Positions 14,051 to 30,867 of a DNA stretch of 64,000 nt are shown piece after piece. The stretch spans positions 372,001 through 436,000 of the forward strand of contig JAPZUD010000001.1 of NCBI GenBank assembly GCA_027533425.1, read 5' to 3'. Made by a program: the position numbers and the translations under genes. A model generated the notes under the pieces. The model saw only the letters and a list, made by a program, of their open reading frames with translations. It searched no databases and was not told the origin of the DNA. Source of the stretch: Beijerinckiaceae bacterium. GTDB taxonomy: Bacteria; Pseudomonadota; Alphaproteobacteria; Rhizobiales; Beijerinckiaceae. Numbering within the stretch: position 1 is the first letter of the stretch; every line of letters begins with the position of its first letter.

Positions 14051-14063
14051 GTATGCAGCATAC
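14051..14063. promoter_or_regulatory. GntR-type operator, perfect 13-bp palindrome
   Basis: GTATGCAGCATAC is a perfect palindrome around a central A. It lies between the divergent dehydratase-like (start 14026) and amidohydrolase genes. Near-identical sites occur at 25116, 26579 and 30855, each before an operon of the same catabolic island, which encodes a GntR-family regulator at 20825-21523. Confidence 0.75.
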
Positions 14064-14091
14064 TTGCGACCCGGGAACCATTAGCTATAGT
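14064..14091 (+). promoter_or_regulatory. Promoter for the amidohydrolase-TRAP-CoA transferase operon
   Basis: TTGCGA (14064-14069) and TATAGT (14086-14091) are separated by 16 bp, a good sigma-70-type pair. The -35 box abuts the palindromic operator, so a bound GntR protein would block polymerase. Transcription would start near 14098, which rules out the GTG at 14090 as the translation start of the next gene. Confidence 0.55.
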
Positions 14092-14173
14092 GGCCCTGCC
14101 GTCAATCCGGGAGGCAGCGATTTCACACCAGCCAGCGGCAGGATCGGTCAACCAGAACGGGGCTGGACGCGCC

Positions 14174-15064
14174 GTGGTGGACGCACATCACCATGTCTGG
14201 GATCCTGGCCGGAACTACCATCCCTGGCTCTGTGACGAACCCCCGATCCGCTTCCGCTACGGTGATTACGCCGCGATCCGCCGACCCTACCTCCCGGATG
14301 ATTTCCGCCGCGATGCCGCGCCCTATCAGCTTCTCGCCAGCGTCTATGTCGAGGCGGAATGGGATCCGCGTGATCCTGTCGGCGAGATGGCCTATATCGC
14401 CGACCTTCGGGCTGAGACGAGCCTGCCCAGCGTGGCCGTGGCGCAGGCCTGGCTCGACCGGGCCGATTGTGCGGCCGTGCTGGAAAGCCATGCCGCGCGG
14501 GATTTCGTCCGTTCGGTCCGCCACAAGCCGCGGGCCAATGCCTCGCCGGCTGACGGGGCTCCCGGCGGGATGACGGATCCACGCTGGCGCGAGGGGTTTG
14601 CCCGGTTGGCGCCGCTCGGGCTGCACTTCGACCTGCAGACGCCATGGTGGCATCTCGGCGAAGCGGCCCGGCTGGCGGCGGATTTTCCGGAAACCACCAT
14701 CATCCTGAACCATACCGGCCTGCCGGCGGATCGCTCACCCGAGGGGCTGGCCGGCTGGCAGGCTGCGATGCGGGGCCTCGCGGCCTGTCCGAATGTCATG
14801 GTCAAGATCTCGGGGATCGGCGTCCCCGGCCAGCCCTGGACAGCCGAGGCCAATCGCGGGATCGTGCTGCGGACGATCGAGCTTTTCGGAACCGGGCGCT
14901 GCATGTTCGCCTCGAACTTTCCGGTCGATTCGCTCTGTGCCAGCTTCCCCACGATTTTCAACGGGTTCGAAGCCATCGTGGCCGGCTTCCCGCCGGAGGA
15001 ACAAGAGGCGTTGTTCGTCGAAAACGCCCGACGCATCTATGCGATAGGAGAGGGACATGCCTGA
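14174..15064 (+). CDS. Amidohydrolase family 2 (lactonase-like) protein
   Basis: About 296 residues if translation starts at the GTG at 14174, just before VDAHHHVWD; the upstream GTG at 14090 overlaps the predicted promoter. The family (COG3618, including fuconolactonase and 2-pyrone-4,6-dicarboxylate hydrolase) is a metal-dependent TIM barrel. The HxH pair is in DAHHHVW, a later His is in LNHTGLP and the C-terminal motif is FASNFPVD, where fuconolactonases have GSDWPV, so the usual catalytic Asp position reads Asn with an Asp four residues on. It probably opens a lactone or a related ring ester. It overlaps the next gene by 8 nt and is the first gene of the operon. Confidence 0.8.
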   Translation: MVDAHHHVWDPGRNYHPWLCDEPPIRFRYGDYAAIRRPYLPDDFRRDAAPYQLLASVYVEAEWDPRDPVGEMAYIADLRAETSLPSVAVAQAWLDRADCAAVLESHAARDFVRSVRHKPRANASPADGAPGGMTDPRWREGFARLAPLGLHFDLQTPWWHLGEAARLAADFPETTIILNHTGLPADRSPEGLAGWQAAMRGLAACPNVMVKISGIGVPGQPWTAEANRGIVLRTIELFGTGRCMFASNFPVDSLCASFPTIFNGFEAIVAGFPPEEQEALFVENARRIYAIGEGHA

Positions 15065-15950
15065 AACGGGAACGGCAAAACCAAGGCTTGGCTATGTCGG
15101 GATCGGCCTCATGGGCCTGCCGATGGTCCGGCATCTGCTGCCGAAGGGCTATGCCATCACCGCCTATGATATCGCGCCGGCCCGCTGCGAATCCGCGCGC
15201 GAAGCCGGAGCCCGCATCGCGGCCACGCCCGCCGGTGTGGTGGAGGGCGCGGATCTGGTCATCCTCAACCTGCCGACGCTCGATGCGGTGGAGCAGGTGA
15301 TGTTCGGCAGCGGCGGCGTTGCTGCCGCGATGAAGCCGGGCCAGATCCTCGTCGATTTCTCGACCATCCCCGTCGAGGCCTGCCGCCGCCTCGGCGCCCG
15401 CTTGCTGGCGGAACGCGGCTGCGGCTGGGTCGATACGCCGGTCTCGGGTGGCCCGCCGGCTTCCGGCACCGGCACGCTGACCGTCATGGCCGGCGGCCGC
15501 GAGGAAGATCTCGCCCGGATCGCGCCGCTCATGGCCGATGTTGCTGGCCGATACACGATCATGGGCGGCCCCGGCGCGGGAATGGTGGCCAAGATGATCA
15601 ACCAGATGATCGTCGGCTGCACCCATGCTGTCCTGGCCGAAGCCCTGATGGTGGCCGAAGCGGCGGGGATCGACGCGAAGCGCATCCCCGAATGCCTGGC
15701 TGGCGGCCATGCCGACAGCAACCTGCTCCAGCGCAACTATCCGCGCATGGCCAACCGCGAATTCGCACCGCAGGGCTATGCCCGGCAGATGTTGAAGGAT
15801 CTCGAGATGGTCAATGTCTTCACCGCCGGGCTGAAGACTGCCACGCCGATGACGGCGGATGCGCTCAATCTCTACCGGATGGCCGTTCATTTCGGCCATG
15901 CGGAACTCGATACGACCGCCTTGGTCAAGGTTTACGACCGCGAGGGCTGA
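15057..15950 (+). CDS. NAD(P)-dependent beta-hydroxyacid dehydrogenase (HIBADH family)
   Basis: 297 residues. The Rossmann motif GYVGIGLMGLPM is at 12-23. The substrate-binding motif DTPVSGGPPASGTGTL follows at 126-141, and the catalytic Lys lies in GAGMVAKMINQ (K179). These are the marks of the 3-hydroxyisobutyrate / tartronate-semialdehyde reductase family, which interconverts a beta-hydroxy acid and its semialdehyde. Its start overlaps the end of the amidohydrolase gene, and a TRAP binding-protein gene follows after 49 nt. The exact hydroxy acid is not evident. Confidence 0.85.
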   Translation: MPETGTAKPRLGYVGIGLMGLPMVRHLLPKGYAITAYDIAPARCESAREAGARIAATPAGVVEGADLVILNLPTLDAVEQVMFGSGGVAAAMKPGQILVDFSTIPVEACRRLGARLLAERGCGWVDTPVSGGPPASGTGTLTVMAGGREEDLARIAPLMADVAGRYTIMGGPGAGMVAKMINQMIVGCTHAVLAEALMVAEAAGIDAKRIPECLAGGHADSNLLQRNYPRMANREFAPQGYARQMLKDLEMVNVFTAGLKTATPMTADALNLYRMAVHFGHAELDTTALVKVYDREG

Positions 15951-15999
15951 CACCCTTCGACAATCAGGGCCCCAAGGGCCGAAACTGGGAGGAAGAACG

Positions 16000-16992
16000 A
16001 TGCTGAACTGGAAATGGTTGCTTGCGCCGGGTCTCGCGATCCTGCCGCTCATGACGGCGCCGGCCGATGCGCAGATCAAGCTTCGCTACGCGCATGTCGG
16101 CGTGGCGAATGCCCCGCAGACGCTCTATGCCGACGAGGTCGCCAAGCTCGTGAAGGAACGCACGCAAGGCCGCGTCGAGATTCAGGTTTTTGCGAATTCG
16201 CAGCTTGGCGGCGTGGCCGAGATGGTTGACGGGGTGAAATCCGGGGCCATCGCGATGGGCCATCATGACTTCGCCTCGCTCGGCCGCATCCTGCCGACGA
16301 CGGCCGTGTTCAACACGCCCTTCGTCTACCGCGATGCCGAGCATTCGCTCCGTGCCACGGATTCGCGCAGCTCGCCGGCCCTGCAGGCGATCAACAAGGA
16401 GCTGGTCGAGAAGGGCGGCATGCGGATCGTCGGTTCCTTCTTCCAGGGCACCCGCCACCTGACCTCGAAGGAAAAGGTGCTTTCTCCCGCTGACATGAAG
16501 GGCAAGAAGTATCGTGGCGTTCCGGTGAAGCTCTGGTCCTCGATGCTGACCGGCATGGGCGCCATCGCCACGCCGGTCGAAGTGTCCGAACTCGCCACCG
16601 CACTGGCGACCGGCCTCGTTGTCGGCCAGGAAAACCCGCTGCCGAACATCTTCAACCTCAAGCTGTTCGAAGTGCAGAAATTCGTCATGCTGACCGGCCA
16701 TATGCAATCGGTCCTGTCGGTTTTCGTGAACGAGCGCGTCTGGCAGGGGATCCCCGCCGCCGATCGCAAGATCATCGAGGACACGATGGCCGAGGTCGGC
16801 CAGAAGACGCTGGCCTGGGACAACGAAAGCTTCGACCGTTACCGCAAGGAGCTTGAAGGCAAGGGCATGACCTTCATCGGCGAGAAGGACGGACTCGATC
16901 TCGCCGCCTTCCGCAAGGCTGTACTCGACCAGATCGCCAAGGATTTCCCGGACTGGACCAACTATATTTCCCAGATCCAGGCCGTGAAGTGA
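16000..16992 (+). CDS. TRAP transporter solute-binding subunit DctP
   Basis: 330 residues from the ATG at 16000, preceded by GGGAGGAA. A Sec signal peptide ends near PADAQ. The mature protein has the DctP layout: FANSQLGGVAEMVDGVKSGAIAM near the start, the Arg-bearing strand KGKKYRGVPVKLWSSM, and VVGQENPLPNIFNLKLFEVQKF, the Q-E-N-P signature of the hinge. The conserved Arg typical for carboxylate ligands fits an organic or sugar acid. The membrane subunits follow immediately. A short GGCCC/GGGCC hairpin (15968-15980) lies just upstream. Confidence 0.92.
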   Translation: MLNWKWLLAPGLAILPLMTAPADAQIKLRYAHVGVANAPQTLYADEVAKLVKERTQGRVEIQVFANSQLGGVAEMVDGVKSGAIAMGHHDFASLGRILPTTAVFNTPFVYRDAEHSLRATDSRSSPALQAINKELVEKGGMRIVGSFFQGTRHLTSKEKVLSPADMKGKKYRGVPVKLWSSMLTGMGAIATPVEVSELATALATGLVVGQENPLPNIFNLKLFEVQKFVMLTGHMQSVLSVFVNERVWQGIPAADRKIIEDTMAEVGQKTLAWDNESFDRYRKELEGKGMTFIGEKDGLDLAAFRKAVLDQIAKDFPDWTNYISQIQAVK

Positions 16993-17002
16993 CGTTGCCT
17001 TC

Positions 17003-17024
17003 CGGCGGGCCACCCGGCCCGCCG
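17003..17024 (+). promoter_or_regulatory. Intercistronic hairpin between dctP and dctQ
   Basis: CGGCGGGCC (17003-17011) pairs perfectly with GGCCCGCCG (17016-17024) around an ACCC loop. It lies 11 nt after the dctP stop and has no T-run. A stem at this place would protect the binding-protein mRNA from 3' decay and lower expression of the membrane subunits. This is an inference from position. Confidence 0.55.
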
Positions 17025-17047
17025 CCTCCAGCCTGCCGGAAACCGTC

Positions 17048-17530
17048 ATGCGACTGCTTGTCCTCGCCCTCCGGGTCGTCTCCTGCCTGCTTCTGGCTGG
17101 CCTGATCCTGGCGCCTTTCACCCAGATCATCATGCGCGGGGTCTTCGACGTGCCGCTGGCCGGCGCCGAGGAAATCGCCCGCTACATGCTGATCTGCCTG
17201 ACCTTCCTCGCTGCGGCTCTGGTCTCGCTCGACGGGGGGCAGATCCGGATGGAGGAATTCCAGGGCATGCTGCCGGAACGGCCGCGCTGGCTCCTGCAAC
17301 TGGTGATCGAGATGTCCGGGATCGTGTTCTTCTCGGTGCTGTCGGCGGCTGCTTTCCTGACGATCAGCCGCAATTTCAGCAGCACGACCGCGACGCTGGA
17401 AATGCCTTTCGTCTTCTTCATGGGGCCGCTCGCCATCGGCGCGGCCTTCCTCGCTCTGGCCTGTGCCAGCCTGTTCTGGACCACCTTCTCGCGCGGCAGG
17501 CCCGACGAGAAGCACACCACCCTGACCTGA
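17048..17530 (+). CDS. TRAP transporter small membrane subunit DctQ
   Basis: 160 residues with four membrane segments (for example CLLLAGLILAPFTQIIMR and GIVFFSVLSAAAFLTI). The second span contains the GAEEIARYMLICLTFLAAAL motif typical of DctQ, which joins DctM in the inner membrane. It follows dctP after a strong hairpin and precedes dctM by 10 nt. Confidence 0.9.
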   Translation: MRLLVLALRVVSCLLLAGLILAPFTQIIMRGVFDVPLAGAEEIARYMLICLTFLAAALVSLDGGQIRMEEFQGMLPERPRWLLQLVIEMSGIVFFSVLSAAAFLTISRNFSSTTATLEMPFVFFMGPLAIGAAFLALACASLFWTTFSRGRPDEKHTTLT

Positions 17531-17540
17531 GGTCCCGATT

Positions 17541-18824
17541 ATGGCCGGCTTTCTCGTTATCCTCGCCTTTGTCGGCCTGTTCGCGCTCGGCTTCCCCGTG
17601 GTGCTGGCCATTGGCATCCCGTGCCTGATCTATCTCGCCGCGAACGGCCTGCCGATCGACCTGCTGGCCCAGCGTACGCTCTATGCAATGGATTCCTTCC
17701 CGCTGGTTGCGGTGCCGGTCTTCCTCTTCGTCGGCAGCCTGATGAATTCGGCCGGCATCTCGAAATACATCTACAAATTCGCCGATACGCTGGTCGGCCG
17801 TCTGCCCGGCGGCCTCGCGCAGGTGAACATCTTTGGCTCGCTGGTCTTTGCCGGCATGTCCGGTTCGGCCTTGGCCGATATTGGCGGGATCGGCCGCATC
17901 GAGATCGATGCCATGAAAGAGAAGGGCTACAACCGGGCTTTTGCAGCGGCGGTGACCTCGTCCTCCGCCATTGTCGGCCCGATTTTCCCGCCCAGCATCC
18001 CGCTGATTATCTATGGCACCGTCACCGGCGTATCCGTCCTGCAGCTGCTGCTCGGCGGCATCCTGCCGGGCCTGCTCTGCGTCGCCGGCCTGATGCTGAT
18101 GACGGCCTGGCTCGCCCGCAAGCGGAACTACCCGCGCGCGGATCGCTGGCCCACGATCGGCGAGATCCTGCGCGATTTCTGGCCAGCCCTGCCGGCGATC
18201 CTGGCCCCTGTACTCCTGATCGTCGGCATGCTCGCCGGCTTCTTCACGCCGACCGAAATCGCCTCCGTCACCGTGATCTACACGATCGCGATCAGCGCGC
18301 TCTTTTACCGCGAATTGACCTGGGCCGGCCTCTACTCCGCGGCTTTGGAGACGATCCGCTCGTCGGCCGCCATCCTGCTGATTGTCGCGGTCGCCGCGCT
18401 CTTTGGCTGGATCCTGTCGGTCGAGCGCGTACCGCAGATTCTCGCGGGCTGGATGCTGTCGATCTCGTCCGATCCGCTCGTCCTGCTGCTGCTGGTGAAC
18501 ATCCTGCTGTTGATCGTCGGCATGTTCCTCGATTCCACCACGGCGATCCTTGTCATCGCGCCGATCATTGCCAAGCCGCTGATGCTGGCCGGTGTCGACC
18601 CCGTCCATCTCGGCATGGTCGTTGTCTTCAACCTGATGGTCGGTCTGCTGACACCGCCCATGGGGCTGGCGCTCTACCTTGTCGCCGATATCGCGCAGGT
18701 CAGGATGCGCGATGTCCTGCGCGAGATGATGCCGTTCTATATCCCGCTGGGCTTGACGCTGCTCGTGATCACCTATGTGCCGTGGATCACCACCTTCATC
18801 CCGCGCCTCGCCTTCGGAAACTGA
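17541..18824 (+). CDS. TRAP transporter large membrane subunit DctM
   Basis: 427 residues, about 12 spans. DctM signatures are clear: FVGSLMNSAGISKYIYKFAD, FAGMSGSALADIGGIGRIEIDAMKEKGY, GPIFPPSIPLIIYG and GFFTPTEIASV. The DctM subunit couples uptake to a sodium gradient. It is followed by the CoA transferase gene after 3 nt, so the transporter and catabolic genes are one transcription unit. Confidence 0.93.
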   Translation: MAGFLVILAFVGLFALGFPVVLAIGIPCLIYLAANGLPIDLLAQRTLYAMDSFPLVAVPVFLFVGSLMNSAGISKYIYKFADTLVGRLPGGLAQVNIFGSLVFAGMSGSALADIGGIGRIEIDAMKEKGYNRAFAAAVTSSSAIVGPIFPPSIPLIIYGTVTGVSVLQLLLGGILPGLLCVAGLMLMTAWLARKRNYPRADRWPTIGEILRDFWPALPAILAPVLLIVGMLAGFFTPTEIASVTVIYTIAISALFYRELTWAGLYSAALETIRSSAAILLIVAVAALFGWILSVERVPQILAGWMLSISSDPLVLLLLVNILLLIVGMFLDSTTAILVIAPIIAKPLMLAGVDPVHLGMVVVFNLMVGLLTPPMGLALYLVADIAQVRMRDVLREMMPFYIPLGLTLLVITYVPWITTFIPRLAFGN

Positions 18825-18827
18825 ACG

Positions 18828-20036
18828 ATGCCCCGCCCCGCGCCCTCGACTGCGCTCCGTCCGCTCCGCGTGATTGACCTGTCCCGCGTCCGTGCCGGCC
18901 CGACCTGCGTGCGCATTTTCGCCGATTTCGGCGCCGATGTGATCAAGGTCGAGCCGCCGCCGGGTCTTGACCCCAACGAGAATATGAGCGGGCCCCGGCA
19001 TGGCTATGACATGCAGAACCTGCACCGGAACAAGCGGTCGTTGACCCTCAACCTGAAGAAACCGTCGGGGATGGCCGTCCTGCGGCGCCTGCTCGAAACA
19101 GCCGACCTGCTGGTCGAGAATTTCCGCCCCGATGTGAAGGGCAAGCTCGGCCTCGATTTCGAGACCTTGCATGCGCTGAACCCGCGCCTGATCCTTGTCT
19201 CGCTGTCCGGCTTCGGCCAGACCGGGCCCTATCGCAGCCGGTCCGGCTTCGACCAGATCGCGCAGGGCATGGGCGGGCTGATGTCCGTGACTGGCCTGCC
19301 GGGGCAGGGGCCGGTTCGCGCCGGCATCGCGGTGGCGGATTCCGCTGCTGGCCTCTATGCGGCGATCGGCGCGCTGGTGGCGCTGCAGGAGCGGGCAATC
19401 TCCGGCCTCGGTCAATGGGTTCAGACCTCGTTGCTCGAGGCGCAGATCGGCATGATGGATTTCCAGGCCGCGCGCTACCTCGTCGAGGGCCAGGTGCCGC
19501 CGCAATCGGGTAATGACCACCCATATTCGACGCCGATGGGCGTCTACAAGACCCGCAACGGATACATCAACATAGCGGTTGGCGCCGAGGGCCATTGGCG
19601 CTCTTTCTGCGCCGCGATCGGCGAGCCGGATTGGGCCGATGACCCGGATTACAATTCGCTCGAGAAGCGGTTTGTCCGGCGGCCGCAGCTGCGCGAGCGG
19701 CTGGAGGCCATCCTCGCCCGGGAGGATTCGGCCTATTGGCTTGGCCGGCTGGAAGAGGCGGCTGTCCCTGCCGGACCGATCTATGCGGTGGACGAGATGT
19801 TCGAGGATCCACAGGTCAGGCATCTCGGCATCGCGCAGCCGGTGACCCATCCGTCGCTTGGCGAGATCCGGCTTGTCGGAGAGCCGGTTACCCTCTCGCG
19901 GACTCCGGCCAGCCTCGCTACGCCGACGCCCGATGCGGGCGACCATAATGCGGAAATCCTTGCCGAACTGGGCTATTCCGGAGGCGAGATCGATTCGTTG
20001 CTGGCCGAACACGGGCCGGGGGAGCCCAGATCATGA
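18828..20036 (+). CDS. Family III CoA transferase (CaiB/BaiF)
   Basis: 402 residues, the normal length for the family. The N-terminal half carries LRVIDLSRVRAGPTCVRIFADFGADVIKVEPP and NKRSLTLNLKKPSG, and the catalytic Asp lies in VRAGIAVADSAAGLYA (D171), the residue that forms the acyl-aspartyl intermediate. It moves CoA between two carboxylic acids, so the substrate of this island is probably activated as a CoA thioester. The stop overlaps the start of the crotonase-fold gene by 4 nt (ATGA). Confidence 0.9.
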   Translation: MPRPAPSTALRPLRVIDLSRVRAGPTCVRIFADFGADVIKVEPPPGLDPNENMSGPRHGYDMQNLHRNKRSLTLNLKKPSGMAVLRRLLETADLLVENFRPDVKGKLGLDFETLHALNPRLILVSLSGFGQTGPYRSRSGFDQIAQGMGGLMSVTGLPGQGPVRAGIAVADSAAGLYAAIGALVALQERAISGLGQWVQTSLLEAQIGMMDFQAARYLVEGQVPPQSGNDHPYSTPMGVYKTRNGYINIAVGAEGHWRSFCAAIGEPDWADDPDYNSLEKRFVRRPQLRERLEAILAREDSAYWLGRLEEAAVPAGPIYAVDEMFEDPQVRHLGIAQPVTHPSLGEIRLVGEPVTLSRTPASLATPTPDAGDHNAEILAELGYSGGEIDSLLAEHGPGEPRS

Positions 20037-20818
20037 CCGAGGCCGCATCCGAGATCCTTTTCTCCCACGAGAACGGGATCGGCATCATCACCCTCAACCG
20101 GCCGCAGGCCCGCAATGCCCTGACCTTCGCCATGTACGAGGAGATTGCCCGGATCGCGGCCGATCCGCAGGCCATGGGCGCCACGCGTGCGCTGATCCTG
20201 ACCGGCGCGGGGGACAAGGCCTTCGCCGCCGGCACCGATATCGCCCAGTTCCGCGATTTCCGCACGCCCGAAGACGCACTCGCCTACGAGGACCGGATCG
20301 AGCGCGTGCTCGATACGCTCGAGGCCTGCCCCGTGCCCACCATCGCCGCGATTGCCGGCGCGGTAACGGGCGGCGGCGCCGCGATCGCCGCCTGCTGTGA
20401 CCTGCGCATCGCCACCGAATCCGCCCGTTTTGGCTTCCCCATCGCGCGGACCCTCGGCAATTGCCTTTCCATGCGGAACTATGCCCGGCTCAACGCCCTG
20501 CTTGGTCCCGCCCGCGTGAAGGACATGATCTTCACCGCGCGGCTGATCGAGGCGGAAGAGGGGCGGGCCATCGGCCTGTTCAGCGAGATCCTCCCCGACC
20601 ATGCAGCCCTGACCGCACGGATGATGAGCCTTGCCGCGTTGATTGCCGGCCATGCGCCGCTGACCTTGCGCGCCACGAAGGAATCGCTCCGCCGGATCGG
20701 GCAGGGCGGGGATCTCGATGACAGCGAATGGATCCTGAACTGCTATCTCAGCGGCGACTTCAAGGAAGGCATGGAAGCCTTCCTTGCCAAGCGCCCGCCG
20801 GACTGGAAGGGCCGCTGA
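20033..20818 (+). CDS. Crotonase-fold protein lacking both catalytic glutamates
   Basis: 261 residues of the enoyl-CoA hydratase/isomerase family. The fold markers are present: LNRPQARNALTFAMY near 21-35, the first oxyanion-hole region AFAAGTDI near 64-70 and GAVTGGGAAIAACCDLRIA at 109-127. The two glutamates that hydrate the double bond in true enoyl-CoA hydratases are missing: position 117 is Ala and 137 (FGFPIARTLG) is Ile. A standard hydratase reaction is therefore unlikely; crotonase relatives also act as decarboxylases, hydrolases, isomerases and C-C lyases. Translational overlap with the CoA transferase suggests it acts on that CoA ester. It ends 6 nt from the convergent gntR gene. Confidence 0.85.
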   Translation: MTEAASEILFSHENGIGIITLNRPQARNALTFAMYEEIARIAADPQAMGATRALILTGAGDKAFAAGTDIAQFRDFRTPEDALAYEDRIERVLDTLEACPVPTIAAIAGAVTGGGAAIAACCDLRIATESARFGFPIARTLGNCLSMRNYARLNALLGPARVKDMIFTARLIEAEEGRAIGLFSEILPDHAALTARMMSLAALIAGHAPLTLRATKESLRRIGQGGDLDDSEWILNCYLSGDFKEGMEAFLAKRPPDWKGR

Positions 20819-22260: not shown

Positions 22261-22269
22261 GGCCTTGGC

Positions 22270-23262: not shown

Positions 23263-23283
23263 ATCTTCCTCCTGGGATGGTTC

Positions 23284-24567
23284 TTAGCGACCGTAGAAAA
23301 AGGCAGCGGGCCCGGTCACAAGGATCGGGAACGCGATGAGCAGGGCCATGACGATGAGCTGGGCGATCAGGAAGGGCATCACGCCCCGGATCACCCGGTC
23401 CATCGAGATATTGCCGACCGCGCAGACGACATTGAGCACGGTGCCGATAGGCGGGGTCAGCAGGCCGATGGCGTTGTTCATGATGAAGAGAACGCCGAAA
23501 TAGACCGGATCGATCCCCGATTGCTTGACCAGTGGCATGAGCACGGGCGTGAGGATCAGCACGGTGGGAATGAAGTCGAGCGCGGTGCCGACAATGAAGA
23601 CCAGCAGCATCATCGCCGCCATGAGCAGCATCGGGTTGCCCGTCAGCGGGCCAAAGATCCGGCTGACCTCGCCGGGAATATCCGCGATCGTGATCAGCCA
23701 GGCCGAGACCATGGCTGCGCCGACAAGGAACATCACGGCAGCGGAGGTACGGATCGTCGCCAGCAGGGCAGGGCGGATATGCTCGATTTTCAGCTCTCGA
23801 TAGACGAACATCCCGACAAGGAAGGCATAGACCGCCGCGACCACGGCTGCCTCGGTCGGGGTGAAGGCGCCGGCTTTCATGCCGCCCATGATCAGGACCG
23901 GCAGCGCGAGCGCCCAGATGCCGTCGAGAAAGGCCCGGCCGATCTCGCTCCAGCTGGCCCGTTCGGTCCGCGCGACCGGCTCGTCCCGGGCAACGATGGC
24001 CCAGGTGATCAGCAGCGCCATCGCCATGAGCAACCCCGGCACGATGCCCGCAAGGAAGAGCCGCGTGATCGAGACGCCCGCCGCCACGCCGAACACGACG
24101 AAGCCGATCGACGGCGGGATGACCGGCGCAATGATCCCGCCCGCGCTGATCAGGCCGCAGGCCCGGTCGATCCGGTAGCCGGCCTGCCGCATCATCGGGA
24201 TGAGGATCGCTGCGAGCGCCGCGGTATCGGCTACTGCAGAGCCGGATATGCTCGCCATGATCACCGAGGCGAAGACCGCGACATAGCCGAGCCCGCCGCG
24301 CCGGTGGCCGAGGAAAGCCACGGCAAGGCCGATGATCCGGCGCGACAGGCCGCCGGCATTCATCAATTCACCCGCAAGGATGAAGAAGGGCACCGCCATC
24401 AGCGTGTAGTTATCCGCGCCGCCGACAAGGTTCTGCGCCACGATCTGGGCGTCGAAGGTGCCAAGCCAGAGCATCAGCGCGACCCCGCAGGCCAGCAGGG
24501 CGATGGCGATCGGCATGCCCGTCGCCATGGCGCCGATCAGCGAGCCGAGGAAGACCAGCACCGTCAT
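23284..24567 (-). CDS. TRAP transporter large membrane subunit DctM (second system)
   Basis: 427 residues from the ATG at 24567, which overlaps the dctQ stop by 4 nt. DctM signatures: FFILAGELMNAGGLSRRI, SISGSAVADTAALAAILIPMM, GGIIAPVIPPSIGFVVFG and GAFTPTEAAVVAAVYAF. Late motifs TALDFIPTVLILTPVLMPL and NAIGLLTPPIGTVLNV complete the two-repeat architecture. Confidence 0.93.
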   Translation of the reverse strand: MTVLVFLGSLIGAMATGMPIAIALLACGVALMLWLGTFDAQIVAQNLVGGADNYTLMAVPFFILAGELMNAGGLSRRIIGLAVAFLGHRRGGLGYVAVFASVIMASISGSAVADTAALAAILIPMMRQAGYRIDRACGLISAGGIIAPVIPPSIGFVVFGVAAGVSITRLFLAGIVPGLLMAMALLITWAIVARDEPVARTERASWSEIGRAFLDGIWALALPVLIMGGMKAGAFTPTEAAVVAAVYAFLVGMFVYRELKIEHIRPALLATIRTSAAVMFLVGAAMVSAWLITIADIPGEVSRIFGPLTGNPMLLMAAMMLLVFIVGTALDFIPTVLILTPVLMPLVKQSGIDPVYFGVLFIMNNAIGLLTPPIGTVLNVVCAVGNISMDRVIRGVMPFLIAQLIVMALLIAFPILVTGPAAFFYGR

Positions 24568-25094
24568 GGCCGTTGCTCCGGCCCGCCCCGCGCGAAATCC
24601 TCGGATTCCGTGCCGACCACATATTCTTCCGGACGCATCCGGCCGGTCAACAGCCGGAACAGGGCCACGCCATTGAGCACGGCAATGCCAGCCCCGCCCA
24701 CGAGTGCGGCGATATAGGTCATGGCCAGCGGGATCCCGGTGATCGGGGCGTAATTGTCGATATTGATCACCGCCTGTCGCCAGGAGCCGATCACGACAAG
24801 GCCGATACAGACAAGCGAGACCAGTTCGGCGAGGAAGCGGAAAGCCTTCTGCCCGCCCGGGCCGAGCGCGCCGACCAGTGAGGTCATGCCGAGATGGCCA
24901 TGGTTGCGCGAGACGAGGAAGGCGCCGCCGAAGGTGAGCCAGACGAAGAGGACGCGCGCCAGTTCCTCGGACTGGATAATGCCGGAATCGAACCCATAGC
25001 GCATGACGACATTGCCGAAAACCAGCGCGATCATCGCGACCAGCGCGAGGATCAGCGCATTCTCGACCAGCCGGAAGAAGAGGCGCTCGAACAC
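24564..25094 (-). CDS. TRAP transporter small membrane subunit DctQ (second system)
   Basis: 176 residues with four spans (ENALILALVAMIALVFGNVVMR, then QSEELARVLFVWLTFGGAFLV, the DctQ signature). It is the first gene of the reverse-strand run dctQ-dctM-dctP-cyclase family-gntR. Its ATG is 21 nt from the palindromic operator at 25115-25129, which overlaps the predicted -10 box. Confidence 0.9.
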   Translation of the reverse strand: MFERLFFRLVENALILALVAMIALVFGNVVMRYGFDSGIIQSEELARVLFVWLTFGGAFLVSRNHGHLGMTSLVGALGPGGQKAFRFLAELVSLVCIGLVVIGSWRQAVINIDNYAPITGIPLAMTYIAALVGGAGIAVLNGVALFRLLTGRMRPEEYVVGTESEDFARGGPEQRP

Positions 25095-25114
25095 GGGGGC
25101 GTTTCCGTTCTTGT

Positions 25115-25129
25115 TGTATGCAGAATACA
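25115..25129. promoter_or_regulatory. GntR-type operator before dctQ
   Basis: TGTATGCAGAATACA: palindromic with one mismatch to the consensus GTATGC(A/T)GCATAC. It overlaps the -10 element of the promoter for dctQMP. Confidence 0.7.
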
Positions 25130-25152
25130 GAACGCGTGGTTTGCCTTGTCAA
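25124..25152 (-). promoter_or_regulatory. Promoter for dctQ-dctM-dctP-cyclase family-gntR
   Basis: On the reverse strand a consensus TTGACA (25152-25147) is followed after 17 bp by TGTATT (25129-25124). The -35 box overlaps the stop codon of the SAF-oxidoreductase gene upstream, and the -10 box lies inside the operator. Confidence 0.55.
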
Positions 25153-26540
25153 GCGCCGAGGAAGACCGCGTCCTGCTCGAGGCGGAGATCGAGCAGGGTC
25201 GAACTTGGCTCGATGGCAAGGTCCGCGAGCCGGATCGCCGTGCCGGTGGGCAGATCCCGCGCCAGAACCCGGTTCGCGACAAGATAATAGGGGGTCGTCT
25301 GGCCCGCCGAGAGCGGCAGGGCGGGGCGCATCTCGGCCGTGACACCGTCAATCGTGTGATGATGGCCGCGCGCTTCCAGCACTGTTCCGGCTGCGAGCGG
25401 CCGCGTGGTGACCGCAACGAGATCCTGCTTCGGCGCGTAATCCGCGCCATAGGGCGTTTCGCCGAAGGCCGCGAGATCGAACAGGCTGGTTGCCGCCTCC
25501 AGGCCGAGCAGGTGGCGCGGCAGATAGATCATCGCCGTCTCGCCGTCCCGGCTGACAACATGGCCTTTCTCGGCAAGGACCTGCCAGGCCGTCCGGTCCT
25601 GGCAGCGGATGGTGACGAAGACCCCGCCGGCAAAGCTGGCCTCGTCAGCCAGCCGGATATGGTGGAAAACATCGAGCCGCCGGCCGCCGCCCAGCAGCCC
25701 GCCGCCCGTTTGGGGCCGGAACAGCTCGGCAATCTCCGGGATCCGGGCCACCGGGCAATGAAAGCCGGCACGGTCGGCTCCGAGGCCGGTTGCATTGGCG
25801 ACGAGCGTCATCTCGCAGAGATCCGGCACGGCCCGCAGCGGGAAATGGCCTCCGAGAAGCCGGGCCCGGGTGGCTGCCCGTTCGGACGCGGCTTGCGCCG
25901 GATCGTTCCAACCCGCGCCGATCCCCTCGATCCGTGCCGGAACACCGTTGCAGGTCACGCCATCATGGGCAGGGTCGACCACGAAATCATACTCGCTGGA
26001 TTTGCCGGCACATAGGATCTCGAAGCCCAAGGTTTCCGCCCAGGTGACGAGGTCGATCAGCAGGCTCGGCTGGTCTCCGTCTACCGGGGCCAGCCGCACG
26101 CCCTTCTGCCGTGCCTTGCGGGCGAGCATGGGGCCGGCCACCGAATCGGCCTCCTTGCTGACCAGCAGAACATGGCGCTGCGCTTCGATGGCGGCGAGGC
26201 TGTGCCGCGCGGCGGCTTCCGGGTGTCCTGTCGCCTCGACAAGGATGTCGAAGGGCAGGTCGAGCACGGTGTCGAGGCTGCCCGCCGCGACAAGCTTGCC
26301 CGCCCGGTACGCTGTTCCGGCCTCCTGCGCTGTGGAACATGAAACAATGTCCTGCGGATCATGGCCCGCCGCCACAAAGGCCCGGCCTGCTGTCTCCGCG
26401 GTCAGGTCGACCGCAATCCGCGGCAAAAGCCGGGGAATATGCCGTGCCTGCGCGATCAGGCTCTGTCCGAACTGCCCGCTTCCGATCACGCAGAGGCTGA
26501 CAGGGCGGGCGAGGGCGGCATAGCGGTGATGGTAGTTCAT
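25149..26540 (-). CDS. SAF-domain NAD(P)-dependent oxidoreductase (homoserine dehydrogenase-like)
   Basis: 463 residues. N-terminal Rossmann fold with VIGSGQFGQSLIAQA near 18-32. A central part recalls homoserine dehydrogenase (DILVEATGHPEAAARHSL, VLLVSKEADSVAGPMLARKA, AGKSSEYDFVVDP). At the C-terminus an SAF-type domain (DLVAVTTRPLAAGTVLEARG ... NRVLARDLPTGTAIRLADL). This matches COG4091-type proteins, which are found with tetrose/tetronate and other sugar-acid genes; the exact reaction is unsettled. It is divergent from tctC, with two palindromes between the genes. Confidence 0.82.
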   Translation of the reverse strand: MNYHHRYAALARPVSLCVIGSGQFGQSLIAQARHIPRLLPRIAVDLTAETAGRAFVAAGHDPQDIVSCSTAQEAGTAYRAGKLVAAGSLDTVLDLPFDILVEATGHPEAAARHSLAAIEAQRHVLLVSKEADSVAGPMLARKARQKGVRLAPVDGDQPSLLIDLVTWAETLGFEILCAGKSSEYDFVVDPAHDGVTCNGVPARIEGIGAGWNDPAQAASERAATRARLLGGHFPLRAVPDLCEMTLVANATGLGADRAGFHCPVARIPEIAELFRPQTGGGLLGGGRRLDVFHHIRLADEASFAGGVFVTIRCQDRTAWQVLAEKGHVVSRDGETAMIYLPRHLLGLEAATSLFDLAAFGETPYGADYAPKQDLVAVTTRPLAAGTVLEARGHHHTIDGVTAEMRPALPLSAGQTTPYYLVANRVLARDLPTGTAIRLADLAIEPSSTLLDLRLEQDAVFLGA

Positions 26541-26578: not shown

Positions 26579-26591
26579 GCATGCTGCATAC
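26579..26591. promoter_or_regulatory. GntR-type operator between the SAF-oxidoreductase and tctC genes
   Basis: GCATGCTGCATAC matches the 13-bp consensus at 12 of 13 positions. It lies 39 nt upstream of the SAF-oxidoreductase start and 72 nt upstream of tctC, so it could serve both directions. Confidence 0.7.
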
Positions 26592-26596
26592 AGTTA

Positions 26597-26609
26597 TGAC
26601 AAGTTGTCA
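26597..26609. promoter_or_regulatory. Second palindrome beside the GntR site
   Basis: TGACAAGTTGTCA has perfect 6-bp arms around a central G. It lies only 5 nt from the GntR-type site and does not share its sequence, so a second regulator may bind here. No other copy was noticed in the window. Confidence 0.5.
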
Positions 26610-26662: not shown

Positions 26663-27655
26663 ATGGCACGCAGATTCGGAATGGCCCTGGGTTTCCTGGC
26701 CGCCGGCATGGCCGGTGCTGCCGCGCAGGGCTGGCAGCCGAGCAAGCCGATCGAGTTTGTCGTCACGTCCAGCCCGGGCGGCGGCACCGACAATTTCACC
26801 CGGATGATCCAGTCGATCATCATGAAGTACAAGCTGATCGAGCAGCCGATCGTTGTCAGCAACAAGGGCGGCGGCTCGGGTGCGGAAGGCTATCTCGTTT
26901 CGAAGACAGCCGCCGGCGACCCCTACAAGGTCATTTTCGGCACCAACAACGCCTATCTGCTGCCCTATGTCGCCAAGCTCGGCTACAAATTCTCCGACCT
27001 GACACCGGTGGCAGCTCTGGCGCTTGACGAATTCCTGCTCTGGGTCAAGGCGGATGCACCCTACAAGACCGCGAAAGAGTATATCGAGGCGGTCAAGGCC
27101 AAGCCCGAGACCTACAAGATGGGCGGCAGCCAGTCGAAGGATACCGACCAGACGCTGACCAGCATCCTGTCCACGGTGACAGGCGCGAAGTTCATCTATG
27201 TCCCGTTCCAGGGCGGCGGCGCGGTGGGCACCCAACTGGCCGGCGGGCATGTGAATTCCCATACCAACAATCCGAACGAGAGCATTGGCCAGTGGAAAGC
27301 CGGGCAGGTCCGTCCGCTCTGTGTGTTCTCGCCGGCCCGTCTGCCGGCCGGTCCGAAGGTCACCGAAACGCAGGGTTGGGCTGATATTCCGACCTGCAAG
27401 GAAGCGGGGATTCCCGTCGAGCGGTTCCAGATGCCGCGCACGGTCTGGCTGCCGGCCGGCACCCCGCCCGGAGCTGTCCAGTTCTATGAGGGCGTCCTGA
27501 AGAAGGTTTCGGAAACGCCGGAATGGCAGGAATACATCACCCGGACGGTCCAGACCGGGCAGTTCCTGTCGGGTGACAGCCTGAAGGCCTTCGTGGCCAA
27601 TGACGACAAGCTCTCGCGCGAGGTGTTCGAGCGCGAAGGCTGGATCGTGAAGTAA
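26663..27655 (+). CDS. Tripartite tricarboxylate transporter binding protein TctC
   Basis: 330 residues, start ATG 26663 with GGAAAAGGAGGAAGAA upstream. Signal peptide to about AAAQ. Bug/TctC family marks: PSKPIEFVVTSSPGGGTDNFTR near the N-terminus, NKGGGSGAEGYLVSK, FIYVPFQGGGAVGTQLAGGHV in the ligand loops and the C-terminal tail typical of the family. It delivers a carboxylate to TctAB in the inner membrane. First gene of tctC-tctB-tctA, downstream of two palindromic sites. Confidence 0.93.
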   Translation: MARRFGMALGFLAAGMAGAAAQGWQPSKPIEFVVTSSPGGGTDNFTRMIQSIIMKYKLIEQPIVVSNKGGGSGAEGYLVSKTAAGDPYKVIFGTNNAYLLPYVAKLGYKFSDLTPVAALALDEFLLWVKADAPYKTAKEYIEAVKAKPETYKMGGSQSKDTDQTLTSILSTVTGAKFIYVPFQGGGAVGTQLAGGHVNSHTNNPNESIGQWKAGQVRPLCVFSPARLPAGPKVTETQGWADIPTCKEAGIPVERFQMPRTVWLPAGTPPGAVQFYEGVLKKVSETPEWQEYITRTVQTGQFLSGDSLKAFVANDDKLSREVFEREGWIVK

Positions 27656-27667
27656 GGGCGGCGGGCC

Positions 27668-28156
27668 ATGGTCGCGCGCTGGCAGGCGGAACTGGGGATG
27701 GCGGCCTTTCTGGCCGTCATCGGCGTCATTACCATTACCGGCGCGCTGGAATACGGCGTCGGCTGGTCGCCATCGGGGCCTGAGCCCGGCGCGTTCCCCT
27801 TCTACATGGGGATCATCGTCCTGGTGGCGAGCCTCGCCAATGGCCTGCGGGCCGCCCTGCCTCTGCTGCGGCCCGGCCTCTGGGCCGAACGCCCTTTCCT
27901 GAAGCCGGAGCAGTTGCGGCTCGTCCTCGGATTTACCCTGCCGATCTTCGGGCTGGTTGTGGCCAGCCTGATGCTCGGCCTCTATGTCGGGATGGCGCTC
28001 TACCTGTTCGGTACGCTGGTGTTCCAGAACCGGTATCCCGTGCTGAAAGCGAGCCTGATTGCAGGTGCCGCGCCGGTTTTCGCCTATTTCCTCATCGAAC
28101 GGACCTTCAGGGTCGCGATGCTGAAAGGCCCGCTCGAAGCCTGGCTGGGTCTGTGA
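27668..28156 (+). CDS. Tripartite tricarboxylate transporter small membrane subunit TctB
   Basis: 162 residues with four membrane segments. It has the usual TctB pattern: a first span (FLAVIGVITITGALEYG) followed by GWSPSGPEPGAFPFYMGIIVLVASL. It lies 12 nt after tctC and 7 nt before tctA. Confidence 0.88.
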   Translation: MVARWQAELGMAAFLAVIGVITITGALEYGVGWSPSGPEPGAFPFYMGIIVLVASLANGLRAALPLLRPGLWAERPFLKPEQLRLVLGFTLPIFGLVVASLMLGLYVGMALYLFGTLVFQNRYPVLKASLIAGAAPVFAYFLIERTFRVAMLKGPLEAWLGL

Positions 28157-28163
28157 GGCCGCC

Positions 28164-29663
28164 ATGGATGGATTTTCCGGCCTTCTGCACGGTTTCGGCG
28201 TCGCGCTGACCTGGTACCACGTCACGCTGATGGTGGTTGGCGTCCTGCTGGGCATCCTTGTCGGCGTGCTGCCGGGGCTGGGTGCCCCGAACGGCGTCTC
28301 GCTCCTGCTGCCGCTGACCTTCACAATGGATCCGGTCTCGGCGATCATCCTGCTGACCAGCATGTACTGGGGCGCGCTGTTCGGCGGCTCCACCACGTCC
28401 ATCCTCTTCAACATCCCCGGCGAACCCTCCTCGGTCGCAACGACCTTCGACGGCTATCCTATGGCGCAGAACGGTCGGGCCACCGAAGCGCTCAGCTTTG
28501 CCTTCCTCTCGGCCGGTTTCGGTGCGATTGTCGGCGTGCTGCTGATCACCGCGCTTTCGGGCTGGGTGACGCAATTCGCCCTGAAATTTTCCTCGCCGGA
28601 ATTCTTCGGCGTCTATTTCCTTGCCTTTGCCAGCTTTGTCGGCCTGTCCGGCGCGCCGCCGCTCAAGGCTGCGGTCTCGATCGCGCTGGGTTTCTCGCTG
28701 GCCGCGGTCGGGATGGATTCCGTGTCCGGCAGCCTGCGTCTGACCTTCGGCTTCGATGTGCTGCTAGCCGGGATCAGCTTTCTCGTCGCCGTGATCGGCC
28801 TGTTCGGCATCGGCGAGCTGATCCTCACCATCGAGGACGGCCTGAAACTGGATGGCATCCGCGCCAAAATCACCCCGCGTGACGTGCTGCGGACAGCGGC
28901 GCAGATGCCGAAACACTGGGCCACGCTCCTGCGTTCGTCCATCGTCGGCTGCTGGATGGGCATCACCCCCGGCGGCCCCACCGCCGCGTCCTTTATGTCC
29001 TATGGTCTCGCCAAACGCTTTTCGGCCTATCGCGCCAATTTCGGCAAGGGCGAACCGGATGGCGTGATCGCGCCGGAAACGGCCGATCACTCCGCCGGAA
29101 CCTCGGCCATGCTGCCGATGATGGCGCTTGGCCTGCCAGGCTCCGCCACGGCTGCGGTGATGCTCGGCGGCCTGATGATCTGGGGTCTCAATCCCGGCCC
29201 GATGCTGTTCGTCGAGCGACCCGATTTCGTCTGGGGGCTGATCGCCTCGATGTATCTCGGCAATGTCGTCGCCGTGGTGCTTGTCCTTGCCACTGTGCCG
29301 CTCTTTGCCTCGATCCTGCGCATTCCCTTTGCCATTATCGGCCCACTCATCGTCGTCGTCTGCTTCATCGGTGCCTACACGATTGCCGGCCGCCCCTTCG
29401 ATCTGTGGCTGGCCCTCGCCTTCGGTGCACTGGGTTACGCGTTCAAGAAGCTGGACTACCCGATTGCACCGCTGATCCTCGCCATGGTGATCGGCGACAA
29501 GGCGGAGGATGCCTTCCGCCAGTCGATGATCATGTCAAAGGGCTCGCTGACGATCTTCTGGTCCAACCCGCTGGTGACCAGCCTGATGCTGCTCGGCCTT
29601 GTCCTGCTCTTCTGGCCCCTGATCGGCGCAATGATCCAGCGGCTCCGGTCGGCCCGCGCCTGA
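28164..29663 (+). CDS. Tripartite tricarboxylate transporter large membrane subunit TctA
   Basis: 499 residues, the standard length, with about 12 spans. TctA signatures are plain: [75 protein letters not shown] and LGLPGSATAAVMLGGLMIWGLNPGP. Final gene of the tctCBA operon; pdxA converges on it. Confidence 0.93.
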   Translation: MDGFSGLLHGFGVALTWYHVTLMVVGVLLGILVGVLPGLGAPNGVSLLLPLTFTMDPVSAIILLTSMYWGALFGGSTTSILFNIPGEPSSVATTFDGYPMAQNGRATEALSFAFLSAGFGAIVGVLLITALSGWVTQFALKFSSPEFFGVYFLAFASFVGLSGAPPLKAAVSIALGFSLAAVGMDSVSGSLRLTFGFDVLLAGISFLVAVIGLFGIGELILTIEDGLKLDGIRAKITPRDVLRTAAQMPKHWATLLRSSIVGCWMGITPGGPTAASFMSYGLAKRFSAYRANFGKGEPDGVIAPETADHSAGTSAMLPMMALGLPGSATAAVMLGGLMIWGLNPGPMLFVERPDFVWGLIASMYLGNVVAVVLVLATVPLFASILRIPFAIIGPLIVVVCFIGAYTIAGRPFDLWLALAFGALGYAFKKLDYPIAPLILAMVIGDKAEDAFRQSMIMSKGSLTIFWSNPLVTSLMLLGLVLLFWPLIGAMIQRLRSARA

Positions 29664-29675: not shown

Positions 29676-29699
29676 CCCGCAGATAGTCCCGCAGATAGT
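29676..29699. repeat. 12-bp tandem duplication after tctA
   Basis: CCCGCAGATAGT occurs twice head to tail (29676-29687 and 29688-29699) in the spacer between tctA and pdxA. It is probably a slippage product. No function is apparent. Confidence 0.8.
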
Positions 29700-29707
29700 A
29701 ACGAAAA

Positions 29708-29727
29708 CGCCGCCCCGGAGGGCGGCG
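29708..29727 (-). terminator. Rho-independent terminator behind pdxA
   Basis: CGCCGCCC (29708-29715) pairs perfectly with GGGCGGCG (29720-29727) around a 4-nt loop. On the reverse strand it is followed by TTTTCGTTA, and it lies 36 nt after the pdxA stop. It may also stop tctA transcripts arriving from the other side. Confidence 0.75.
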
Positions 29728-29763
29728 CGTCTTCGTCGGGGAGAGAAAAGCGCGGAGGGCCGC

Positions 29764-30774
29764 TCAGGCCGCCTTGCGGCGGGCGGCAGCCATCCGCGTG
29801 GCAATGCTCATGGCATTGCGCATGGCATCGGGATTGGCGATGCCTTTGCCGGCAATGTCATAGGCGGAGCCATGGGCTGCCGTGGCGATGGGGAAGGGAT
29901 AGCCGCCAAGGACAGTAACGCCCTGGTCGAAGCCGATCAGCTTCATCGCGATCTGGCCCTGGTCGTGATACATCGTCAGCACGGCATCGAACTCGCCCTT
30001 GCGGGCCCGGACGAACACCGTATCCGAGGGGAAGGGGCCCGCGCAGGCGATGCCCTCGCGCTGACCGGCCGCCACCACCGGCTCCAGAACATCAATATCC
30101 TCGCGGCCGAAATTGCCGCCATCACCGGCATGGGGGTTGAGCCCGGCCACGGCGATGCGGGGCTTTGACCAACCGGCGGCACGCATCGCCTGGTCGGTCA
30201 ATCGGAGCGCGCGCGTCACGTTCTCCGTGGTAATCAGTTCGGCAACGCCGGATATCGGCACATGCGAGGTGACGCGGGCATTCCAGAGGTCCGGCAGGAT
30301 GTTGAATTCGCTCGCCGTACCCTTGAAGTCGAGGAATTCGTTCATGAAGACGACCTCGTCTTCATAGGCCGGGTAGGAGAGCCGCATCGACGCCTTGTTG
30401 AAGGGCGAGAATGTCACACCATCCACCTGGCCGTCCTTCGCGAGGGCGAGGCCCTTGCGGAAATTGGCCATGGCTGCATCGCCGGCCGGCTTTTGCAACT
30501 CACCGATACGGATTGTCGCCGGGTCGAGATGGGCCATGTCAATCAGAACAGGTCCATTGCCGGCAGGGAGGGGATCGCCGTCGCGGATGGTCGGCAACGA
30601 GACGGAAACCCCCGCGGCCCGTGCACCGGCCGCGAGCACCCGCGCATCGCCGATGGCGATGATCCGCGCGGCGGCATGCATCTCGGCATCGGCAAGGATG
30701 CGGGCGGAAAGTTCGGGCGCAATGCCCGCCGGGCAGCCGATCACATGGGCAAGGACAGGCCGGCTGGCATCCAT
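29764..30774 (-). CDS. PdxA-family dehydrogenase (4-hydroxythreonine-4-phosphate dehydrogenase-like)
   Basis: 336 residues from the ATG at 30774 (AAGGAG ribosome site 8 nt upstream; an in-frame TTG at 30780 is too close to it). The three metal-binding histidines are present: H171 (VTSHVP), H215 (LNPHAGDGGNFGRED) and H270 (MYHDQGQ). The family oxidises and usually decarboxylates hydroxy acids: 4-phosphohydroxythreonine in B6 synthesis, phosphotetronates in PdxA2 pathways, or the unphosphorylated terephthalate diol in TphB. No DUF1537 kinase is nearby, and the genes sit in a catabolic regulon beside a TTT importer, so a non-B6 role is likely. Confidence 0.88.
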   Translation of the reverse strand: MDASRPVLAHVIGCPAGIAPELSARILADAEMHAAARIIAIGDARVLAAGARAAGVSVSLPTIRDGDPLPAGNGPVLIDMAHLDPATIRIGELQKPAGDAAMANFRKGLALAKDGQVDGVTFSPFNKASMRLSYPAYEDEVVFMNEFLDFKGTASEFNILPDLWNARVTSHVPISGVAELITTENVTRALRLTDQAMRAAGWSKPRIAVAGLNPHAGDGGNFGREDIDVLEPVVAAGQREGIACAGPFPSDTVFVRARKGEFDAVLTMYHDQGQIAMKLIGFDQGVTVLGGYPFPIATAAHGSAYDIAGKGIANPDAMRNAMSIATRMAAARRKAA

Positions 30775-30854
30775 CGTCAAAACTCCTTCCGAGGGGCAGG
30801 GCGCAGAAGCGCCATTTCACGCCTTACCCTAGAAATGTCCCGGGGATTGGTCAA

Positions 30855-30867
30855 GTATGCTGTATAC
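30855..30867. promoter_or_regulatory. GntR-type operator upstream of pdxA
   Basis: GTATGCTGTATAC matches the 13-bp consensus at 12 of 13 positions. On the reverse strand it is followed directly by TTGACC and, 17 bp on, TAGGGT, a promoter for pdxA in which the operator abuts the -35 box, as at 14051. The forward-strand flavoprotein gene begins 117 nt away and might also be affected. Confidence 0.65.

Follow-up and report, generated by a model that had tools for sequence, protein, structure and literature searches.

A predicted local GntR regulon with a re-centred 20-bp operator in a pdxA-tctCBA gene island of a Beijerinckiaceae bacterium

The window analysed here is a stretch of 64,000 nucleotides from a Beijerinckiaceae bacterium (contig JAPZUD010000001.1, positions 372,001 to 436,000), which contains an island of enzyme and transporter genes with four copies of a short palindromic motif and one gene for an FCD-domain GntR regulator (gntR, 20825..21523, minus strand). 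The sites, their clustering, the conserved link between gntR and the site, and the true dyad are evident from the sequences. The operator predicted from them is a 20-bp dyad, GNATNC-T-GYATRC-A-GNATNC, centred on TGYA|TRCA, and comparison of genomes gives good support to the island GntR as the cognate regulator of a local regulon. The reading as a whole, in which a VanR-like GntR dimer on this operator represses the island and is released by an acid inducer, is considered very probable.

Binding, repression and an acid inducer are the parts of this reading that we infer. A GntR dimer would bind the 20-bp operator at TGYA|TRCA, each island copy providing the core and one good flanking box, and from this place, on or next to a -35 or -10 box, GntR would repress the island. 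The predicted targets comprise the operon of amidohydrolase, dehydrogenase, TRAP and CoA-transferase genes together with the DHDPS-like gene divergent from it, the second TRAP-cyclase-gntR operon and hence gntR itself, the SAF/DRL oxidoreductase gene with tctCBA, and pdxA. The position of the operators on or at core promoter elements suits steric repression. A carboxylic acid taken up by the island transporters, and probably bound at the metal site of the FCD domain, would release GntR; an acid inducer is likely, because the island encodes two TRAP and one tripartite tricarboxylate transporter (TTT) uptake systems together with enzymes of sugar-acid and carboxylic-acid type.

Copies of GTATGC(A/T)GCATAC are present where an earlier note on this DNA had placed them, perfect at 14051 and with one mismatch each at 25116, 26579 and 30855, and each copy occupies an intergenic, promoter-type position, as that note had also said. 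When 180 permutations of the half-site were scanned over 13001-31100 at one mismatch or fewer, only GTATGC reached four sites, the next best giving two and the mean being 0.08. At three mismatches or fewer the 13-mer is seen eight times in the window, as compared with 7.55 times by chance; this loose count provides no evidence and was set aside. A scan of the genome (3.75 Mb, 99.7% complete), which had been proposed as a check, gave seven sites at one mismatch or fewer, four of them in the 16.8 kb that span the island copies, and three for the reversed 13-mer used as a control. The raw genome count is uninformative alone, and it is the clustering that counts. The refined 14-mer TGYATRCAGNATNC, which consists of the centre and one flank, has exactly four matches in the genome, all in the island, and its reversed control has none; across 100 genomes, including this one, it has 90 matches and the reversed control three. 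The top four places of a position weight matrix (PWM) in the window are the four operators (at least 23 bits), and the next, unrelated place scores 3.4 bits.

The three other 13-mer sites of the genome lie at C3:25447, C10:151611 and C11:303106. In a separate PWM scan of fetched loci, C3:25447 and C11:303106, both without the T before the box, score 14.0 and 12.6 bits, as compared with 18.7-24.1 bits for the island sites, and no PWM score of at least 3 is obtained at C10:151611 (L003). C3:25447 and C11:303106 are possible outlying targets. By eye, both places are promoter-like: C3:25447 (L002, 1501-1513) has a dctP-like gene on one side and a TetR-like gene, with a DUF849-like gene next, on the other; C11:303106 (L004, 1501-1513) lies between two genes for FAD oxidoreductase-like proteins.

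The centre of the predicted operator is not that of the 13-mer. A motif search by expectation maximization (EM) without a symmetry constraint, made on 70 non-redundant upstream regions from 60 starts, gave one motif or its reverse, tGtATtCTGTATgCAG.ATt, in the six best starts, and the information profile has its axis of symmetry in the middle box TGYA|TRCA. In 37 non-redundant sites of at least 18 bits, the half-site read outward from the centre is T (100%), A/G (54/41%), C (97%) and A (100%), continuing with G (82%), any base, A (88%), T (93%), any base and C (62%); weaker GNATNC boxes thus flank the core at +/-7 bp. As a dyad, the 13-mer is off register by 3.5 bp and represents the core plus one of the two flanking boxes. 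Its palindrome has a false centre because GYATRC is its own reverse complement, so that the middle box and one flank look inverted. The 13-mer was first adopted as the operator and was given up after the EM profile proved to be centred on TGYA|TRCA. Nor does its spacing fit a FadR-type dimer, as the earlier note had it. The FadR-subfamily consensus TKGT-N2/3-ACMA has GT and AC 3 or 2 nt apart on the dyad according to PMC4494728, whereas they are 9 nt apart in the 13-mer, and this spacing rules out the 13-mer as a FadR-spaced site. When the re-centred core is compared with the 2-nt FadR class in the 37 sites, G fits (97%), but the next place is T in only 54% and otherwise mostly C, and the outer +/-5 position is G/C in 82%, not the T of the FadR consensus.

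Operator 1 (14044..14063, dyad 14053/14054) has the core TGTATGCA at 14050-14057, the right box GCATAC and a poor left box, AAAAAC. It has the DHDPS-like gene on one side and the amidohydrolase operon on the other, and abuts the -35 box TTGCGA of a predicted promoter, TTGCGA-16-TATAGT from 14064, which a promoter scan places directly after the 14051 copy. Operator 2 (25109..25128, dyad 25118/25119) has the core TGTATGCA at 25115-25122, the right box GAATAC and a poor left box. It is located upstream of dctQMP-cyclase-gntR over the presumed -10 box, the 25116 copy being so placed by TTGACA-17-TGTATT, which was found by eye and not listed by the scan. Operator 3 (26579..26598, dyad 26588/26589), between the SAF/DRL oxidoreductase gene and tctC, has the core TGCATACA at 26585-26592, the left box GCATGC, a poor right box and a further-left box, GAATGT, at 26572-26577. 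Operator 4 (30855..30874, dyad 30864/30865) has the core TGTATACA at 30861-30868, the left box GTATGC and the right box GCGTGC. It is located upstream of pdxA (minus strand) and a FAD-linked oxidase gene (plus strand), and TTGACC, again found by eye and not listed by the scan, is immediately adjacent to the 30855 copy on the minus strand.

In an ungapped comparison of the window with three sister genomes, 14/14, 13/14, 14/14 and 14/14 columns of the 14-mer are invariant at operators 1-4, and the nearest 30 bases to the left/right have 25/27, 2/14, 17/24 and 21/18 invariant columns, respectively. Operator 1 alone proves little, because its flanks are also well kept. Operator 2 is a clean conservation footprint, kept while its left flank is lost. 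In the three sister genomes the second TRAP-cyclase block is absent and operator 2 lies about 0.2 kb before gntR, and this position directly before gntR argues for autoregulation. The longest open reading frame of the amidohydrolase gene starts at 14090, inside the predicted -10 box, which ends at 14091; it is therefore likely either that translation starts further downstream or that the mRNA has no leader.

GntR homologues were sought in the 100 genomes, and 18 regions of other genomes and two more regions of this genome were fetched. The 13-mer is present at two mismatches or fewer in 10 of the 18 other-genome regions. All four sites are found at the same places in the sisters G002, G015 and G013, whose GntR is 96-97% identical; in a fourth sister, G012, gntR is on a 9.4-kb contig without sites (L055) and four 14-mers are on other contigs. 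In the regions with a GntR of 57-77% identity the genes are in a different order, and the site nevertheless precedes whichever of the island genes is present: it lies upstream of the amidohydrolase gene next to gntR in L060, upstream of pdxA-dhdps-gntR and also upstream of tctC in L061, between tctC and the SAF gene in L062, and between pdxA and gntR in L064 and L066. The eight regions without the 13-mer are the short contig L055; L063 (72%) and L065 (65%), which are without other island genes, except for a 31% caiB-like match in L063; L068 (53%), which has no 13-mer but a PWM site of 19.7 bits; and L069-L072 (44-50%). The 14 genomes with a GntR of at least 57% identity hold 45 14-mers, and another 45 are found in the remaining 86.

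A scan of named genomes provided a larger sample, its best 80 loci having a GntR of 43-77% identity. Four of these are on contigs already fetched, and the 76 non-duplicate loci (43-73%) were used for the 13-mer and 14-mer tests. The 13-mer was tested because it had been defined on the window alone and so avoids the circularity of the PWM. The motif proves to be present beside orthologous gntR genes, where the earlier note had suggested looking: at one mismatch or fewer, 16 of the 76 loci have it in the 330 bp before gntR (permuted motifs, mean 0.05, maximum 1), and at two mismatches or fewer 38 have it there (permuted maximum 8). Over 2 kb it is present in 22 loci at one mismatch or fewer (permuted maximum 10) and in 44 at two or fewer, a test without power, since several permuted motifs reach 39-44. 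Of the 76 loci, 36 have the 14-mer in the 330 bp before gntR (42 within 2 kb), and none has its reversed control. A PWM site at -330..+20 of gntR is found in 62 of the 80 loci at 14 bits or more and in 57 at 18 bits or more, scores that are partly circular because the PWM was trained on 70 of these regions. The corresponding background is 8 of 1413 random 359-bp segments of the same loci at either level, which may include true sites, and 3 and 0 of 1600 shuffles. In six more loci (L108, L110, L111, L112, L114 and L116) the site heads an operon about 1.5 kb upstream of gntR. The flanks of the 80 loci contain a pdxA homologue in 66, tctC in 50, tctA in 49, the SAF oxidoreductase gene in 26 and a DHDPS-like gene in 17 (tblastn, E<=1e-15, distant paralogues counted). 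Usually tctA-tctB-tctC-pdxA is on one side and gntR on the other, forming a pdxA/gntR divergon with one site between them. The assignment of the sites to GntR is thus supported by a link that is kept through rearrangement and across genera.

The regulator itself gives Pfam matches to GntR (PF00392, 60.3 bits, cut-off 27) and FCD (PF07729, 86.7 bits, cut-off 24.3), which place it among the FCD-domain GntR proteins. It reaches the cut-off of no NCBIfam equivalog, the best being phnR_burk (105 against 271.5). Its closest solved chains by sequence are PmiR, a Brucella protein, TM0439, Atu1419 and PS5454. In the AlphaFold2 (AF2) model (pLDDT 89.9, the first 20 residues mostly below 50), the effector-domain helices are 94-118, 121-139, 143-159, 164-176 plus 178-184, 188-206 and 210-228, which are six only if 164-184, broken at 177, is taken as one. 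According to PMC7797058, the effector domain has six helices in the VanR group and seven in the FadR group. The FadR group is marked by an additional helix where the effector domain begins and by a domain-swapped dimer; the model has no such helix ahead of helix 94-118. The Foldseek TMq is 0.57-0.79 to most VanR-group chains and 0.46-0.50 to the FadR chains of E. coli and Vibrio, although PS5454 (3c7j), also of the VanR group, gives only 0.47-0.49. The fold, the helix count and the closest relatives of solved structure favour the VanR group over the FadR type named earlier, and in the model the island GntR resembles a VanR-like FCD regulator. Atu1419 contacts DNA through Glu34, Arg45, Thr46 and Arg49 (PMC7797058). 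The counterparts E52, R63, T64 and R67, matched by eye, are invariant in 49 GntR sequences. The position of FadR Arg35 is presumably Gly in the island GntR, as aligned by eye to the FadR sequence. The ligands of metal-binding FCD domains are three His and one Asp/Asn (PMC7797058); N150, H154, H198 and H220 are invariant in the 49 sequences and may be ligands by analogy only.

Several findings weigh against the reading that the island GntR represses the island from this operator. Each window operator has only one good flanking box. The raw 13-mer is not above its reversed control in the sisters G002 (5 versus 6) and G013 (7 versus 6). No site is found within 10 kb of gntR in G001 (72% GntR) and G006 (65%), genomes that hold three and four 14-mers elsewhere, and G027 and G041 carry perfect 13-mers away from the gntR orthologue, that of G027 being about 2.5 kb from a 41% paralogue. 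Related TGYATRCA sites of 15-22 bits are present at L016 (centre 1957), L017 (centre 2489) and L022 (centre 138), near three other FCD genes of this genome, so that a paralogue might share the operators; this suggests that the TGYATRCA core is common to these FCD paralogues. The earlier claim of a complete regulon is not sustained in view of these sites and of the weaker ones at C3:25447 and C11:303106. The genome has 17 FCD matches, which makes the nearness of gntR to the sites weak evidence by itself. A second FCD-GntR gene lies in the window at about 40.8 kb, and no related site of at least 9 bits was found within 1.5 kb of it (L023).

It is on these grounds, the number of FCD genes, the sites at three of their loci and a core of the general GT-N2-AC type, that the operators might be assigned to one or more FCD-GntR paralogues of overlapping specificity, the island GntR being a mere neighbour. 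This is unlikely, because the site follows the island-type gntR through rearrangements and across genera, though these regions might share a second regulator as well, and because the genome has the 14-mer form at no other place. It is even harder to credit that one dimer binds the 13-bp inverted repeat GTATGCNGCATAC, as first drawn: all four window copies fit it at one mismatch or fewer, but the unconstrained EM profile is symmetric about TGYA|TRCA, GT-N9-AC is outside the FadR-subfamily spacing range, adjacent self-complementary GYATRC boxes mimic an inverted repeat, and L123, L147 and L151 keep the core and both flanks without a 13-mer at two mismatches or fewer. The regulator could also be an activator rather than a repressor, since operators 1 and 4 are just upstream of the -35 box, a usual place for an activator. 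Operator 2 covers the presumed -10 box, however, and VanR-group proteins are mostly repressors. Together with the description of the VanR-group protein Atu1419 as a repressor (PMC7797058), this makes activation rather improbable.

Repression by the island GntR has its closest parallel in Atu1419 of Agrobacterium fabrum (PDB 6z74, 6za0, 6za3 and 6za7), a VanR-group FCD-GntR of like fold (Foldseek ranks 4-5, 7-14 and others). As described in PMC7797058, its operator ATGTATACAT resembles the island core TGYATRCA, its DNA-contact residues are alike, and it represses hydroxycinnamic acid catabolism from a site at the -10 box or between the -10 and -35 boxes. It has AT...AT outside GTATAC, whereas the island operator has CT...AG; Atu1419 is tetrameric, and flanking boxes are not seen in the parts of the published description considered here. 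FadR-subfamily operators have a GT-N2-AC core that the core of the island operator resembles, and for 13 FadR groups additional, weaker boxes have been reported at 7-12 nt from the centre (PMC4494728). The island operator differs from them in its outer base, C/G instead of the T of TKGT, in the Y/R wobble inside the core, and in island-type boxes that are 7-bp phased on both sides. E. coli NanR binds as three dimers to (GGTATA)3, hexamers repeated a few bp apart as in the island operator, but the NanR hexamer is asymmetric and directly repeated, unlike the island boxes, and NanR needs a 32-residue N-terminal extension for cooperativity (PMC8012715). Dimer stacking is a feature of NanR and only a guess for the island GntR. 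The nearest solved proteins by sequence, and among the first by fold, are PmiR of Pseudomonas aeruginosa (PDB 7xp0/7xp1) and a Brucella melitensis GntR (7u5q), with 26-28% identity to the island GntR.

The boxes may extend beyond the 20-bp operator. In different genera, AT steps are overrepresented 7, 14 and 21 bp away from the centre; outside the stretch that the matrix covers, they are most frequent at 14 and 21 bp (17 of 112 half-sites at either distance, against a background of 5.6%). In 52 sites with flanks at most 50% alike, 35 AT steps lie at 14/21 bp, as compared with 12.8 for rotated flanks, and none of 2000 rotations reaches this number. When the loci were thinned to about one per genus (37 loci, of which 32 have a site, hand-chosen and including some metagenome-assembled genomes of genus not known), 28 AT steps are found as compared with 8.4, and none of 5000 rotations reaches this. 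The excess could be raised by fixed promoter elements and by picking the best of several registers, and the window shows 14/21-bp phasing only at 26572. The regularity hints at stacked dimers as one reading. It is possible, though doubtful, that the operator is a heptad-phased array with GYATRC-like boxes every 7 bp, strongest at the centre, on which several GntR dimers would sit next to each other around the helix, the number of boxes setting both the strength and the spread of repression.

The island begins with a DHDPS-family gene (dapA-like, 13082..14026, minus, PF00701). The plus-strand operon starts with a gene of the amidohydrolase-2 family (lactonase-like, 14090..15064, PF04909), whose match to the L-fucono-1,5-lactonase family is below cut-off, and continues with a beta-hydroxyacid dehydrogenase gene (2-hydroxy-3-oxopropionate reductase/HIBADH-like, 15057..15950, PF03446 and PF14833, equivalogs below cut-offs), the first TRAP set dctP-dctQ-dctM (15994..18824, PF03480, PF04290 and PF06808) and genes for a family III CoA-transferase and an enoyl-CoA hydratase (18828..20818, PF02515 and PF00378). 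On the minus strand, gntR is followed by the second TRAP set, dctQ-dctM-dctP, and a putative cyclase gene, which are read towards gntR (21586..25094, PF04199, PF04290, PF06808 and PF03480), and by the DRL/SAF-family oxidoreductase gene (25149..26540, PF21135 and PF08666). The TTT genes tctC-tctB-tctA (26663..29663, plus, PF03401, PF07331 and PF01970) precede a pdxA-family dehydrogenase gene (29764..30780, minus, PF04166). The FAD-linked oxidase gene divergent from pdxA (30984..32429, plus, PF01565), which has the same position in the three sister genomes, is a possible further target of operator 4. GntR is the only regulator of the island, as the earlier note had stated: a Pfam scan of the other 17 genes in 13082-30780 found none. 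This genome, the G012 contig with gntR and G041 have the cyclase-dctPMQ block, which the three sisters (L056-L058) lack here.

The PdxA-family protein is probably catabolic (PdxA2-like): it scores 238 bits against a PdxA equivalog cut-off of 290, the lowest of three PdxA genes in the genome, and PdxA2-type proteins act in organic acid catabolism (PMC9997740). None of nine proteins, eight enzymes and GntR, reaches an NCBIfam equivalog cut-off among the families listed (for enoyl-CoA hydratase 25 of 71, one subfamily cut-off being passed), and the island substrate was not found in this way. No DUF1537 kinase is encoded by ten open reading frames scanned in the loci of four relatives. Canonical DXR (PF02670) was not found in the nearly complete genome. 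DRL proteins, like DXR, are linked to the isoprenoid pathway. Three DRL-family proteins are encoded, of which the best match, at C7:27048, may serve this pathway; the island protein is the weakest match and is unlikely to be the DXR, since the two others score better. Elsewhere in the window, the predicted protein of 8422-9657 (minus) starts with about fifteen Gly-Leu-Asn repeats, likely a slippage-prone tandem repeat.

A search of a library of papers found the 13-mer strings in none of them, and the regulon may be listed in RegPrecise. Among the entries listed, the 10-mer cores matched no title on a GntR operator, and nothing fitting was found on combinations of PdxA2, GntR, DUF1537 and TTT, on GntR with FCD and TRAP, or on GntR with 7-bp direct repeats. 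Taken together, this is an ordinary kind of local regulon, which the sequence comparison now puts on firm ground with a corrected, predicted operator. A GntR group named by no NCBIfam equivalog is thereby linked both to a precise operator and to a set of pdxA-tctCBA genes that recurs. By record titles this group is found in many Alphaproteobacteria and in some Halomonadaceae and Burkholderiales. The 7-bp phasing is the part of chief interest to a specialist; if it reflects stacked dimers, the operator would be a case of array binding beside NanR and would give a testable rule for reading GntR operators. The compound that releases GntR should be the substrate of the pdxA-tctCBA genes or close to it, so that this substrate becomes searchable.

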